A DNA stretch of 64,000 bases from Gymnodinialimonas sp. 202GB13-11 (GTDB taxonomy: Bacteria; Pseudomonadota; Alphaproteobacteria; Rhodobacterales; Rhodobacteraceae): the NCBI RefSeq assembly GCF_040932485.1, contig NZ_JBFRBH010000001.1, positions 3,398,212 to 3,462,211 on the forward strand. Reading direction: 5' to 3'. Within the stretch, counting starts at the first letter, position 1, and every line of letters begins with the position of its first letter. Positions 12,065-47,924 of the stretch are shown in pieces. Under the pieces are notes generated by a model that worked only from the letters and a program-made list of their open reading frames with translations, did not search any database and was not told the origin of the DNA. Both the position numbers and the translations under genes were made by a program.

Positions 12065-12082
12065 TGTCAACTTAATCTGACA
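12065..12082. promoter_or_regulatory. PpsR/CrtJ-type operator, crtA-proximal
   Basis: Exact TGT-N12-ACA palindrome with the preferred outer bases TGTC...GACA. It sits 17 bases upstream of the crtA start at 12048. PpsR/CrtJ represses crt, bch and puc promoters under high oxygen by binding paired sites of this form. A second site lies 76 bases away near crtI. No ppsR gene is seen in the window, so the regulator is inferred. Confidence 0.8.
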
Positions 12083-12140: not shown

Positions 12141-12158
12141 TGTAAGTTTTAGTGGACA
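12141..12158. promoter_or_regulatory. PpsR/CrtJ-type operator, crtI-proximal
   Basis: Second exact TGT-N12-ACA element, TGTA...GACA, ending 21 bases before the crtI start, close to its AGGGAAAG ribosome site. Centre-to-centre spacing from the first site is 76 bases, about seven helical turns. That favours cooperative binding and joint repression of both divergent operons. Confidence 0.8.
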
Positions 12159-43045: not shown

Positions 43046-44737
43046 ATGAAACGCCTTTTCCTGACCACCGCCATTTGCGCCACGCTTCCACTGGCCGCCC
43101 ACGCCGAGGATGTCCTTGTCCGCGCCCATCTGTCCGAGGCGCTGATCTACGCCGACGGTGCTGAGGTCACGCGCACCGGAGCCGTCACGCTGCCCGCCGG
43201 CCAACACCGCCTGATCGTCGCGATGCCCGACCTCCACGAGGCGCGCCTGCCGCAGATTTCCACCGCCGATGGCATGCGCCTCGGTATCCCGCAGCAATTA
43301 TGGAACCACCCGATTGAGGATGGCACGCTGGATACACCAGCTCAGGCCGATGCTCGCGCTGGAGTTGAGGCCGCAGAAGATGCGCTGCAGGCCGCGCAGG
43401 ATGCGTTGGTTGAGGCAGATGCCGCGATCCGTGCAATCGAAACCCAACAAACCTACGTCGCCGCGATCCTGCGCGGGGGCGAGAATGGCGTGGCCATGCC
43501 CGAAGACCCAACCCTGGTGCCGCAATTCCTGGCGACCCTTGGTGCTGAAACGGAGCGACTTTCGCAAGAACGTCAAGCCGCACAGGTCGTTCGTCGGGAT
43601 TTGGCTGAGGCCGTTACGGAAGCTCAGGCAGACGTGAACCTGGCCATCCTGGCGCTGCAGGCGCTGCGCCCGCTTGGCACTCAGATCACGGCCTATGCCA
43701 TCGACGTTGAAGTTGCCGAGGAAGGCGAACTGGCTTTTGAGCTCAACTACATGACCCAAGGCGCCGGCTGGAGCCCAAGCTATGAACTGGAGCTCGACTC
43801 CGAGACCGGCGTGATGGAGATGGAGCGGTTCATCGTTTTGCAGACAAGCGGTTCCGCCGCTTGGGACGATGTCGCTGTAACGTTCTCGACCGCGACCCCG
43901 GGACGAGAGCGGCGGGCGACGGAATTGTCCTCGATCCCGGCGCGGATCGTCGACCCCAATTCAGGCGGAAGTTTCAGCGGCCTTCAAGTCTTTGGGGCAG
44001 CGGAAGATATGGCTGAAAGCCGAATTGAGCCACAATCCCTGATCGCCGGTGCGGTAGCGCCTGCGATGGAACCGGTCGTCATCGTGGAGGAAGGCGTATC
44101 GGGCGCCGAATTTGCGGGTTTGTCCATCTCGTACCCCTACAGCGCTCCGGTGTCCGTTGGACCTTCAGGGCAGGCGATCCTGCCGTTCGACACCCAGACG
44201 TTCGACACAGAGATGGAAAACCGCGCCGTGCCACGCCACGATGCGACCGCGTTCCTAGTGGCGCAGGTGGAGAACACCATTGGTGAGCCGATCCTGCCGG
44301 GTGAGGCCGTGTTCTTCCGCGACGGCGCCTTGATGGGCGAAGGGTATCTGCCCTTGATCGCATCCGGCGCGGATGTGGAAATGGGCTTTGGCCCGCTGGA
44401 TCACCTGCAACTGCGTTGGATTGATCGGTCTCTGGCGGAGGGCGATCGTGGCTTGTTCACGACCTCTACTACGCAAGTGCGCGAGCTGGCCTTTGGCGTG
44501 ACCAATTCCGGCAGGGAAGCGGAAGAGGTTCGTATTCTCTACGCTGTGCCCTTCGCCGAACAAGAGGATCTGGAACTTGATGTGACCCTTAGCCCGCGCC
44601 CGTCCGAGCAGGATGTAGACGATCAACGTGGCGTCCATGCGTGGGACCTGGTTGTTGCGGCTGGCGAAGAGGCCCTCATCGAACTGCAGGCGGAGTTCGA
44701 GTTCCCTGAAGGTCAGATCCTCGACTGGCGACCTTAA
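43046..44737 (+). CDS. DUF4139 domain protein (mucoidy-inhibitor MuiA-like)
   Basis: A 563-residue exported protein with signal peptide MKRLFLTTAICATLPLAAHA. The N-terminal DUF4140 part (ALIYADGAEVTRTGAVTLPAG) and a coiled helical region (about 100-195, rich in AEDALQAAQDALVEAD) precede the beta-rich DUF4139 domain with LNYMTQGAGWSPSYELELD. The family is of unknown molecular function; one member suppresses mucoid growth. AAGGA precedes 43046. It is followed convergently by the next gene with a four-base overlap. Confidence 0.85.
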   Translation: MKRLFLTTAICATLPLAAHAEDVLVRAHLSEALIYADGAEVTRTGAVTLPAGQHRLIVAMPDLHEARLPQISTADGMRLGIPQQLWNHPIEDGTLDTPAQADARAGVEAAEDALQAAQDALVEADAAIRAIETQQTYVAAILRGGENGVAMPEDPTLVPQFLATLGAETERLSQERQAAQVVRRDLAEAVTEAQADVNLAILALQALRPLGTQITAYAIDVEVAEEGELAFELNYMTQGAGWSPSYELELDSETGVMEMERFIVLQTSGSAAWDDVAVTFSTATPGRERRATELSSIPARIVDPNSGGSFSGLQVFGAAEDMAESRIEPQSLIAGAVAPAMEPVVIVEEGVSGAEFAGLSISYPYSAPVSVGPSGQAILPFDTQTFDTEMENRAVPRHDATAFLVAQVENTIGEPILPGEAVFFRDGALMGEGYLPLIASGADVEMGFGPLDHLQLRWIDRSLAEGDRGLFTTSTTQVRELAFGVTNSGREAEEVRILYAVPFAEQEDLELDVTLSPRPSEQDVDDQRGVHAWDLVVAAGEEALIELQAEFEFPEGQILDWRP

Positions 44738-45261
44738 TCGTCCTCGATCAGGATGACCTCTCCCTCATCCTCGATCAGGTCGGGGAACAGATCAGGATGG
44801 CCCCCGATCTCGGCCCGGTGCAACACGCGCCGGGCCAATTCTGTTTGCGCGAGATTGGGAAAAGCCGCACCGAATTTGTCGATCAAGTCGGCGTAAGACG
44901 AGCTAAGGTCTGATGCTTGGCAAATGCGCGCGGCGGTAGTCGTGCAGTAGAGCGCGATGCCGCCATCCCGTTCACGGAGGGTGTAACCATGCATGGCAAG
45001 CCGGTCCTGCAGATCGTCCCAATCCGATGCATCGGCCAAGTCATCTGCGAGCAGGGCGCGCAAGCGGCGGAGGAGGGGTTGATTGCGCTCCTCCTCCGCC
45101 CTTTCGGGCGTCCTCGCAGCGCGTATTTGCGGGGCGAGGGCCTGTACGAGTATCTTGTGCGCAAGGGTGGCAGGTGACATCTGCTCAGCCCGTGCGCGGG
45201 ATCGCAATGCGGCAAGCGCATTTGGGGGCAGATCAATAGCAATGGGGGCGGACATATCCAT
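44734..45261 (-). CDS. Ribbon-helix-helix-type protein with relaxase-like C-terminal segment
   Basis: A 175-residue protein. The N terminus (IDLPPNALAALRSRARAEQM followed by SPATLAHKILVQAL) resembles Arc/CopG ribbon-helix-helix DNA-binding domains. The segment WDDLQDRLAMHGYTLRERDG through ICQASDLSSSYADLIDKFG resembles a domain found at the C terminus of conjugative relaxases. No mobilisation genes surround it. A perfect TTAA-N7-TTAA box lies 25 bases upstream of its start. Function is unknown; a domesticated plasmid gene or regulator is inference. Confidence 0.6.
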   Translation of the reverse strand: MDMSAPIAIDLPPNALAALRSRARAEQMSPATLAHKILVQALAPQIRAARTPERAEEERNQPLLRRLRALLADDLADASDWDDLQDRLAMHGYTLRERDGGIALYCTTTAARICQASDLSSSYADLIDKFGAAFPNLAQTELARRVLHRAEIGGHPDLFPDLIEDEGEVILIEDD

Positions 45262-45301: not shown

Positions 45302-45832
45302 TCAGCTTTCGACGGTCTCTTGCAGACGGGCGAGGCCGCGTTCGTAATCCGCGCCAACCATGCCATCCATCATCAGGCCGAACCAGCGCCCAATGGGGCC
45401 ACCGCCCATGTCAGCGTCCAGTCCCCAAACGACGCGGGTTCCATCACCCTCGGGCACCAAACGCCACCAAGCCTCTGCCGTTCCCATATCGCCGAAGTCC
45501 AACTCCGTCCGAACGCTTTCATTCTCTGCAATTTCGACGATCTCCTGCCGCCCATTACCAACATTCGGGTGCTCAGACGTCCATTCCATCACATTTCCAA
45601 CGCCAGTGTCCGGTCCGGAATAGGCGACTTGCATATCGGGATCGAGATCGCCCCAAGGCGACCATTCCGCAAAAGCCTGAAGCGAGCTGACATGCGGGAA
45701 CACGGCTTCCGGCGGGGCATCGACGACCAGCTCTCGTTCTACAATCACATGGCGCGGCAGGAACATTCCGACAATCGCCAGAACCGCCGCAAGGCCAACA
45801 AGACCGATCAGGATATTTCTAAGAATACGCAT
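45302..45832 (-). CDS. SRPBCC/START-domain (polyketide cyclase-like) protein
   Basis: A 176-residue protein with one N-terminal membrane anchor (residues 5-25, RNILIGLVGLAAVLAIVGMF) then a helix-grip domain: VDAPPEAVFPHVSSLQAFAEWSPW and WWRLVPEGDGTRVVWGLDADM. Such domains bind hydrophobic ligands; ligand and role are unknown. It is transcribed toward the RHH-type gene with 40 bases between. Confidence 0.85.
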   Translation of the reverse strand: MRILRNILIGLVGLAAVLAIVGMFLPRHVIVERELVVDAPPEAVFPHVSSLQAFAEWSPWGDLDPDMQVAYSGPDTGVGNVMEWTSEHPNVGNGRQEIVEIAENESVRTELDFGDMGTAEAWWRLVPEGDGTRVVWGLDADMGGGPIGRWFGLMMDGMVGADYERGLARLQETVES

Positions 45833-45909: not shown

Positions 45910-46221
45910 TTAGAACCGTTCGGCGCGCAAAACCTCACAGTCACTGACACTGATGACCCCAATATGCTTTTCGACGACGGCAAAAGCCTTGTTCAAAAGG
46001 TCATCCAGCTTGTCTGGTGCGATGATGCAGATCACCTGTACCATGCCCTGGCCCCGGCCGATCTGGCCTTCCCGGCTCCAATTCCCCGACCGGCCCCCAC
46101 CCGCCAGAACGGGAAGGATGGAATAGCCGGTGACGCCTGCATTCTCCATGGCGTCGGTCAGCCGAGACTGCATCACGGCTTCGATGATGACGGCGACGCG
46201 CTTTGCGTTGTGGGTTTGCAT
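45910..46221 (-). CDS. PII-like regulatory protein, SbtB-type
   Basis: A 103-residue PII-superfamily protein. The fold pattern is visible: VAVIIEAVMQSRLTDAMENAGVTGY, the T-loop region with GGGRSGNWSREGQI, and VQVICIIAPDKLDDLLNKAF. The start at 46221 (MQTHNAKRV) is chosen; the longer frame overlaps the carrier gene. It lies six bases after an SbtA-type carrier on the same strand, as in cyanobacterial sbtA-sbtB. In those, SbtB binds cAMP/AMP and controls bicarbonate uptake; whether this holds here is inference. Confidence 0.85.
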   Translation of the reverse strand: MQTHNAKRVAVIIEAVMQSRLTDAMENAGVTGYSILPVLAGGGRSGNWSREGQIGRGQGMVQVICIIAPDKLDDLLNKAFAVVEKHIGVISVSDCEVLRAERF

Positions 46222-46226
46222 GGGGC

Positions 46227-47207
46227 TCAGCCTCCGGTCACGAAAGAGGCAACCGCAAGATAGAGTGGGATGCCCAGGGTTAGATTGAAAGGGAAAGTCA
46301 CGCCAAGTGACAGGGTCAGGTAAATCGAGGGGTTCGCCTCGGGTAGAGCCACGCGCATCGCGGCGGGCACGGCGATGTAGGAGGCCGAGGCGGAGAGTGT
46401 CATGAACAGGACGACGCCGCCGGGGCTGAGGCCGAGGAGGACGCCGGCCAGCAGCCCGAAGGCCGAGCCGACCACCGGCATGACGACACCGAACAGGAAC
46501 AGTCCCGGTTTCAGCACCCCGCGCGCCTCTCGCAATCCCCGCCCTGCGACGAGCCCCATGTCGAGTAAGAACAGGCACAGCACACCCTGGAACGGAGTCA
46601 CGATGAACGGTGCGATCAGATCGAGGCCCTCAGCCCCTGTGATGACGCCAATCAGGAACGAGCCGACCAAGAGGACGATCGAGCCGTTCAAAAGGATTTC
46701 ACGCATCAGGCCCGCATCCATCTGCGCGGCCCCTTTGTCGAAGCGGGCAATCAGCCACAGCGCCGATAGGATGGCCGGTGCTTCCATAACGGCGGCGACG
46801 GCGACCATGTACCCCTCGGAATCGAGCCCCGCACCTTGAACCACGGACGTTGCGGCCACGAACGTCACGATTGAGATAGAGCCGTAATGGCCGGCCACGG
46901 CCGCCGCATCAACGACTGACAAGCCGGTCATCACGCGCAGAAGGGCGAAGGCGACCATTGGTATAGCGAAGGACAGCACAAGACCTGCGACCAGTGACAG
47001 GATGAGGGTGGAGTCGATCCCGTTGTCGGCCACCGCAGCGCCACCTTTGAATCCGATGGCGAACAGCAGGTAGATCGACATGCCTTTCGCAATTGCCTCA
47101 GGGATCGACAGATCCGACCGGGCAAAGGCGGCAAGGACTCCAAGCGCGAAGAACAGGATGATCGGCGACAGCAGATTGTCTGCGGCAAGCGCCAGCATTC
47201 CCTCCAT
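46227..47207 (-). CDS. sbtA: SbtA-type sodium-dependent bicarbonate transporter (DUF897)
   Basis: A 326-residue membrane protein with about ten hydrophobic segments. The family pattern includes GFKGGAAVADNG in the first half and SASASYIAVPAAMRVALPEANP in the second. In cyanobacteria SbtA imports bicarbonate with sodium. The gene lies between a beta carbonic anhydrase upstream (about 67 bases) and an SbtB-type PII protein downstream, all on the minus strand. The pattern points to inorganic carbon supply. No RuBisCO gene is in the window. Confidence 0.85.
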   Translation of the reverse strand: MEGMLALAADNLLSPIILFFALGVLAAFARSDLSIPEAIAKGMSIYLLFAIGFKGGAAVADNGIDSTLILSLVAGLVLSFAIPMVAFALLRVMTGLSVVDAAAVAGHYGSISIVTFVAATSVVQGAGLDSEGYMVAVAAVMEAPAILSALWLIARFDKGAAQMDAGLMREILLNGSIVLLVGSFLIGVITGAEGLDLIAPFIVTPFQGVLCLFLLDMGLVAGRGLREARGVLKPGLFLFGVVMPVVGSAFGLLAGVLLGLSPGGVVLFMTLSASASYIAVPAAMRVALPEANPSIYLTLSLGVTFPFNLTLGIPLYLAVASFVTGG

Positions 47208-47273
47208 GGAGGTCTCCCCATCTACAGCGGTCGTCTGGGGCGGGCTTTACGGGGGCAACGGCCCCTGCGCAAG

Positions 47274-47924
47274 TCAGGCAGGTGCGAAATGGCGGACGCG
47301 CCCGTCGAAGGTTTCGAGATCCATGTCGGCAATATCGGCCCAGAGACCATGCAGGCTGAGCTCTCCGGCATCGACGGCCTTCTTCACGAATGGGTAGCCT
47401 AGTAGGTTTTCGAGGCTGACGTGGATGCCCTCTTTCTCGAGCGCGGTCTGCTTGTCATCGGTGTCATCAATGTCGGCCACGCGCGCAAAGCCAGGGCGCA
47501 GAACATCCAGCCAGCGGCCAATCAGGCTTTCGTGCGCCTCGAATTCGTCTGCATGCCCTTCGCACATCGCAATACAACCCGCGACTCCTCCGCATCGGGA
47601 GTGGCCCATCACCAATATATGTTCGACTTTTAAGTGTTTGACCGCGAATTCCACCGCAGCACCGGTGCCGTGATGGTTTCCGTCCGGCGTGTAGGGTGGC
47701 ACGAGATTTGCGATATTGCGGTGAACGAAAAGCTCGCCCGTGCGTTGCCCGAAGATCGAGTTGATGGCCACCCGGCTGTCGCAGCACGCAATCACCATGG
47801 CCTTTGGATGCTGGCCTTCTTCGGCCAGTTTGCGAAACCAGTCCCGGTTTTCGGGGAAGCTGGATTCCTTCCAGTCATTATAGCGATCCAGAAGATAATC
47901 GGGGAGGGATTTCACTCGATGCAT
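47274..47924 (-). CDS. Beta-class carbonic anhydrase
   Basis: A 216-residue zinc enzyme interconverting CO2 and bicarbonate. Zinc ligands are visible in IACCDSRVAINSIFG (Cys, Asp-Ser-Arg dyad) and MGHSRCGGVAGCIAM (His, Cys). The start at 47924 (MHRVKSLPDYLLDRYNDWK) is standard. It is first in the operon with the sbtA-like and PII-like genes. Confidence 0.95.
   Translation of the reverse strand: MHRVKSLPDYLLDRYNDWKESSFPENRDWFRKLAEEGQHPKAMVIACCDSRVAINSIFGQRTGELFVHRNIANLVPPYTPDGNHHGTGAAVEFAVKHLKVEHILVMGHSRCGGVAGCIAMCEGHADEFEAHESLIGRWLDVLRPGFARVADIDDTDDKQTALEKEGIHVSLENLLGYPFVKKAVDAGELSLHGLWADIADMDLETFDGRVRHFAPA

Follow-up and report, generated by a model that had tools for sequence, protein, structure and literature searches.

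Genes at the locus and their genomic setting

The window, i.e. the whole stretch of 64,000 nucleotides analysed here, corresponds to positions 3398212-3462211 of contig 1 of the genome of Gymnodinialimonas sp. 202GB13-11 (4.0 Mb, 99.96% complete). The earlier note had read a carbonic anhydrase (CA) gene, an Sbt transporter gene and a PII gene on one strand of it, and all three were found there, on the reverse strand, followed by one further gene:

47274-47924, (-) strand: beta-carbonic anhydrase, 216 aa (Pfam Pro_CA, E 3e-44; solved beta-CAs match)
46227-47207, (-) strand: Sbt_1-family transporter, SbtA2-type by sequence, 326 aa (Pfam Sbt_1, E 1.4e-115)
45910-46221, (-) strand: PII-like regulator, CPII/SbtB2-type by sequence, 103 aa (Pfam P-II, E 3.5e-13)
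45302-45832, (-) strand: SRPBCC-type protein (Polyketide_cyc2), the next gene, 77 bp beyond the PII gene

The CA and transporter genes are separated by 66 bp, and the transporter and PII genes by 5 bp. The arrangement is not a matter of chance, because the same gene order recurs in the survey of the family presented below. The SRPBCC-type gene was left out of the operon, since it is present in only 2 of 62 compared loci, the window's own being one of them. The window also encodes, at 44734-45261, a protein of 175 aa that matches the middle domain of the TraI relaxase weakly and below the cut-off; this protein is present in 9 of the 62 loci.

The CA has both of what we take to be the zinc motifs defining a beta-carbonic anhydrase: C-x-D-S-R begins at residue 47 and H-x-x-C at residue 108. 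A hydrophobic leader, judged by eye, is absent, and a whole-genome search showed this protein to be the sole beta-CA of the genome. The transporter scores 386 bits against PF05982 (Sbt_1; cut-off 27) and covers positions 1-307 of the 308 of the profile, while the PII-like protein scores 50.2 bits against PF00543 (P-II; cut-off 25). With such matches, the folds of the operon proteins may be regarded as already settled.

The organism had been described in the earlier note as a likely photoheterotroph, with cbbLS as the genes to look for. This description is borne out: the reaction-centre L and M genes (pufLM) are present at 3378306-3380068 of contig 1, and a search of the 99.96% complete genome found no RuBisCO large subunit. 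The genome contains two Sbt_1 genes and no PEP carboxylase (PF00311). PEP carboxylase is thereby ruled out as a bicarbonate user, and the proposal of anaplerotic carboxylation has to do without this classical anaplerotic enzyme.

Neither a sigma-70-like promoter nor a TGT-N12-ACA motif, presumably the PpsR-type site, was detected ahead of the operon. Two TGT-N12-ACA sites are present elsewhere in the window (12065-12082 and 12141-12158), immediately before a putative crtI gene.

Subclass of the PII-like protein

The best solved relative of the PII-like protein is CPII (5d4n, E 2e-8), from an organism that we take to be Thiomonas; the SbtB of Cyanobium follows with E 1e-3. CPII is the best PDB match both for the single sequence and for the profile. 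Profile comparison gave 5e-15 for CPII, 6e-13 for the cyanobacterial SbtB2-type, 2e-11 for the alphaproteobacterial SbtB1-type and 1e-9 for cyanobacterial SbtB1, values to be read as a ranking only because all these sets are homologous. In one small tree of these short proteins, the window's PII grouped with CPII and SbtB2 at a support of 0.957 and outside the SbtB1 clade. It also lacks the C-terminal CGPxGC hairpin found in some SbtB1 proteins. The T-loop shows a conserved GxSGxW(S/T)REGQ stretch, whose tryptophan (W48) is invariant in 20 aligned relatives. By its sequence, therefore, the protein groups with the CPII/SbtB2 type and not with SbtB1. Binding of adenylates and bicarbonate is a characteristic of CPII proteins. 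The title of the 2016 paper by Wheatley describes CPII as carboxysome-associated; in this respect, the present genome, which is devoid of RuBisCO, differs.

Subclass and substrate site of the transporter

In alignments, the transporter carries the signature SASYIAVPAAMR together with VTFPFN, and not the SbtA1 signature SSSDISGPPTLR. Its position in the tree is outside the SbtA1 group that contains Slr1512, within a large clade of 140 sequences in the other half of the Sbt family. Judged by signature and tree position, the window's transporter and cyanobacterial SbtA1 are not orthologues. The SbtA1/SbtB system (Slr1512/slr1513; 7cye, 7cyf) shares with it the family (E 5e-21 against the Slr1512 structure 7cye) and the same kind of PII partner, whereas the TM9 signature differs and full-length identity is about 25-32%.

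The second Sbt protein that some cyanobacteria possess falls into the same clade as the window's transporter; it has the same signature and is not its sister. Because cyanobacterial SbtA is reported to divide into SbtA1 and SbtA2 (2022 survey, PMC9477826, accessible part), we infer by exclusion that this clade is the published SbtA2. For the latter, the accessible part of a 2026 review (PMC13249358) gives HCO3- uptake with a Km of ~150 uM and SbtB2 as the partner protein; the functional criterion for SbtA2 is chloride-dependent HCO3- uptake with a Km of about 150 uM. The cyanobacterial SbtA2/SbtB2 system (Rourke et al. 2026, via PMC13249358) resembles the present one: in the cyanobacterial genomes that have it, the second Sbt_1 protein is 45-48% identical to the window's and carries the signature SASYIAVPAA(M/I)R. 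In several cases it has its own PII-like neighbour, and these neighbours are the PIIs with which that of the window groups. The window's system differs in that the organism has no Calvin cycle, that a CA heads the operon, and in the T-loop of its PII.

Thirty-nine genomes, mostly cyanobacteria picked for carrying SbtA1, were searched for the SbtA2-type. A near-complete match at 46-48% identity was present in seven, and in one more genome the match spans 263 residues with 45% identity (L204-L211); the remaining genomes gave SbtA1-type matches, in some cases along with shorter stretches of SbtA2-type sequence. The SbtA2-type transporter gene has a PII-like gene nearby in L204-L209; in L204-L207 and L209, this gene stands immediately downstream.

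Mutation of S114, Y140, S324 or S327 of Slr1512 lowers HCO3- uptake (PMC8352866). Two of these four HCO3--site residues are kept in the window's transporter (S112, S276) and two are replaced by alanine (Y140 by A138, S327 by A279); further changes are D325 to Y277 and S323 to A275. Since the TM9 stretch is shared with the cyanobacterial SbtA2-type proteins and S112 and S276 are kept, the site appears compatible with bicarbonate, which falls short of proof.

It should be noted that the two replaced residues would also fit a transporter that moves another small anion (e.g. formate), or one that exports bicarbonate for pH balance, with the CA incidental or serving export. Two published results, each known to us from part of its source, lean the same way. 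When tested in E. coli, an SbtA-like protein of Labrenzia alexandrii, the only alphaproteobacterial one with an uptake test that we found in the literature, did not take up HCO3- (PMC4275256); it is taken here by description, not by sequence. In Shewanella, the A269T change in SO_3758 raises formate tolerance, and the authors lean to efflux (PMC12093963); the S268-A269-S270 site of this protein reads as SbtA2-type. In the parts accessible, these results on related proteins leave the choice of substrate open, and the import of HCO3- reported for cyanobacterial SbtA2 (PMC13249358, accessible part) speaks against this alternative. With the gene neighbourhoods described in the next section also taken into account, we consider it unlikely.

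Gene order and classes in the family

The survey covered 295 genomes of the family, 92 of which have an Sbt match. The loci were sorted into classes by gene context and identity, the class lists being compiled by hand:

Class A: SbtA2-type with a PII of the window's type; 61 loci in 60 genomes
Class B: SbtA2-type, in most cases lacking PII; 21 loci, from which 18 genomes were counted
Class C: SbtA1-type; present in 27 genomes, with the locus examined in 20

SbtA2-type fragments (G086, G252, G021, G222), divergent or truncated loci (G194, G063, G157) and four distant loci (class I) were set apart from the counts.

In the 61 class A loci, the PII gene follows the transporter gene after 5-53 bp; its presence is true by definition, because these loci were chosen for it, while the count for the CA is independent. 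A CA gene on the same strand lies no more than 125 bp upstream in 42 of the 61 loci; in the other 19 it is not directly adjacent, one of these offering only 143 bases of flank. The recurrent order is asd - DUF4139 - [PII-SbtA2-CA] - hypothetical - pepA - NlpC-like, with asd inside the fetched flank, which is often short, in 32 of 61 loci.

Class B is organized differently. A CA gene within 125 bp upstream was found in none of its 21 loci, and a divergent LysR gene lies no more than 300 bp away in 13 of them, as against 0 of 61 in class A (PII-less paralogues L067-L085, L116, L117 and L123). Named relatives of this LysR bear the annotation hydrogen-peroxide-inducible genes activator. Members without PII also occur on phage contigs beside a putative peroxiredoxin and a TerC-like protein. 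The OxyR-like LysR and the phage neighbours hint at a role of the PII-less paralogues in oxidative stress rather than in carbon supply, and add to the case for another anion or for export. The frequent presence of a CA directly upstream in class A points the other way, as does the link with phototrophy, which within the SbtA2-type is confined to the PII-bearing branch.

A relative of the window's CA is present in 263 of the 295 genomes. As it is also the sole beta-CA of the genome, its role is likely to be a housekeeping one. One relative (G235, L094) has the same neighbouring genes and a CA of 78% identity, with neither SbtA2 nor PII between the CA and DUF4139 genes. The SbtA2-PII pair can thus be gained or lost as a cassette, with the CA left in place. 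G235 is a phototroph also without this cassette; its SbtA1-type gene (L111) matches in two pieces and is possibly frameshifted.

Association with phototrophy

Reaction-centre genes are present in 122 of the 295 genomes. Among class A carriers, 49 of 60 are phototrophs, compared with 73 of the 235 others, where every genome outside a class is counted among the others; 11 carriers of class A are non-phototrophic. For class B, 6 of 18 genomes are phototrophs. A RuBisCO match was counted as form I/II at an E value below 1e-100, a cut of our own, which is reached by 49 of the 92 genomes with any match; form I/II was found in 5 of the 60 class A carriers. The module of CA, Sbt transporter and PII in a RuBisCO-less phototroph, as the earlier note had it, stands, and it recurs in phototrophic relatives; the likeness to the cyanobacterial SbtA1/SbtB pair does not, the proteins being assigned on sequence to the SbtA2-type and the CPII-SbtB2-type.

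Common descent was controlled for with two LeuC trees of 145 genomes, each a single-gene tree (median node support 0.86-0.89). The sample drawn consisted of 150 genomes, in which carriers are over-represented because all 60 were taken but only 90 of the 235 others. G146 (no LeuC match), G009 and G021 (split) and G114 and G207 (partial) dropped out, while three further partial sequences stayed in. On both trees, a model in which the two traits depend on each other beat the independent one (likelihood ratios 37.7 and 40.4, 4 df). Of 20 independent pairs that were informative, about 17 went as expected (~17 to 3, with ~20 ties; p about 0.003-0.004), and without the RuBisCO genomes the contrasts were about 14 to 3 (p 0.02) and 16 to 4 (p 0.008). 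The association of the transporter-PII pair with phototrophy thus survives the LeuC-tree control. Class B, with 10 genomes in the tree, showed no such link, and RuBisCO runs, if anything, against class A on the tree.

The association might nevertheless be an artefact, either of common descent, since the species trees rest on a single gene with the node support given above, or of the operon being physically linked to the photosynthesis gene cluster. In the window's genome, 65 kb separate the operon from pufLM, and in 10 of 11 other genomes with both on one contig (among the matches listed, compiled by hand) the distance is 34-341 kb; one genome has the two about 1.2 Mb apart, which does not suit linkage. 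Nor does the locus of G235, which misses SbtA2-PII yet keeps CA, asd and pepA; this makes it less likely that the pair was simply deleted along with the photosynthesis genes. As the contrasts hold on two trees, and also when the RuBisCO genomes are removed, we regard an artefact as quite improbable.

The second Sbt_1 gene of the genome (L002/L102) lies outside the window, at about 3729258-3730229 of contig 1. It carries the SbtA1 signature SSSDISGPPTLR, and is accompanied by an SbtB1-like PII gene downstream and a divergent LysR gene. Among the class C (SbtA1-type) genomes, 26 of 27 are phototrophic and 2 of 27 have RuBisCO, and on the LeuC tree the contrasts with phototrophy are 12 to 0. The SbtA1-type is thus tied to phototrophy even more tightly than the SbtA2-PII pair.

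Possible function of the operon

Aerobic anoxygenic phototrophs, which abound in surface waters, assimilate CO2 by routes other than the Calvin cycle; to our knowledge, the genes by which they acquire CO2 have hardly been identified. The operon described here is a good candidate for inorganic carbon acquisition by RuBisCO-less phototrophs. We think it probable that it serves to supply bicarbonate to an anoxygenic phototroph without RuBisCO, and that it is not part of a CO2-concentrating mechanism.

A cyanobacterial-type CO2-concentrating module for Calvin-cycle fixation would be suggested by the protein families, which are the same as in cyanobacterial uptake of inorganic carbon, and the earlier note had drawn this likeness. 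However, RuBisCO is absent here and its form I/II is rare among the carriers of class A. A CA beside a bicarbonate importer does not fit such a mechanism either, and would undo it, because a cytoplasmic CA lets HCO3- escape as CO2 (according to the accessible part of a review). For the window's genome, a module of this kind is rejected, unless a RuBisCO was missed in the nearly complete assembly, and even as a general reading we find it hardly conceivable. An operon that combines an importer with a cytoplasmic CA makes sense, on the other hand, where HCO3- and CO2 are both needed at low demand.

In the bicarbonate-supply reading that we prefer, the SbtA2-type transporter would probably import HCO3- by Na+ symport, and the cytoplasmic beta-CA would hold HCO3- and CO2 in equilibrium, so that carboxylases using HCO3- (the biotin enzymes) and those using CO2 would both be served. 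The HCO3- users are probably biotin carboxylases, because PEP carboxylase is absent. The PII trimer would probably plug or open the transporter through its T-loop according to the adenylate state, and perhaps to bicarbonate. The tie to phototrophy could plausibly be explained by light reducing respiration and the CO2 that it yields within the cell, which would raise the need for uptake, and at the same time powering that uptake.

The proteins could have much the same roles in an ordinary operon for CO2/HCO3- homeostasis, in which case the link with phototrophy would reflect a habitat that these bacteria have in common (surface or bloom water that is alkaline and poor in CO2) and not light physiology; the two readings overlap on what the proteins do and differ on why phototrophs keep them. 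The sole beta-CA of the genome, so widespread in the family, and the class A carriers that are not phototrophic are in keeping with this. It is harder to reconcile with the CA without SbtA2-PII being common among non-phototrophs, and with two distinct Sbt systems of the same family both being linked to phototrophy. We regard homeostasis as a possible explanation, although a rather doubtful one.

Uptake of bicarbonate by Sbt for anaplerosis in a RuBisCO-less phototroph has already been proposed, for 'Ca. Phycosocius' (PMC10008586); the CA/PII operon and the association across the family are not found in the part of that text covered here. Our literature search, in which subscription journals were thinly covered, returned no report of the operon in RuBisCO-less phototrophs or of its association with phototrophy. 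The present data show a conserved CA-SbtA2-PII operon that tracks phototrophy, not RuBisCO, across the family, and give named genes; they extend the SbtA2/SbtB2-CPII pair, which has until now been discussed in the context of autotrophs, to photoheterotrophs. The relative lacking only SbtA2-PII provides a natural experiment. More tentatively, RuBisCO-less phototrophs may possess an inorganic carbon supply of their own, made of two PII-paired Sbt transporters, one in an operon with the housekeeping CA, which would be retained with phototrophy, lost without it, and gated through PII by energy and bicarbonate, so that light-driven growth does not starve the carboxylations.

As a minor observation, no match to the SbtA2-type transporter was found in a named phage collection, and seven IMG/VR contigs (L379/L385, L380-L384, L386) bear SbtA2-type genes. 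One of these genes, split in two frames, lies by a T4-type terminase, and another by a putative terminase and tail genes; two are beside a putative AhpC-type peroxiredoxin and a TerC-like protein, and one is on a contig of 518 kb. It is possible that the SbtA2-type transporter is a phage-borne auxiliary gene.
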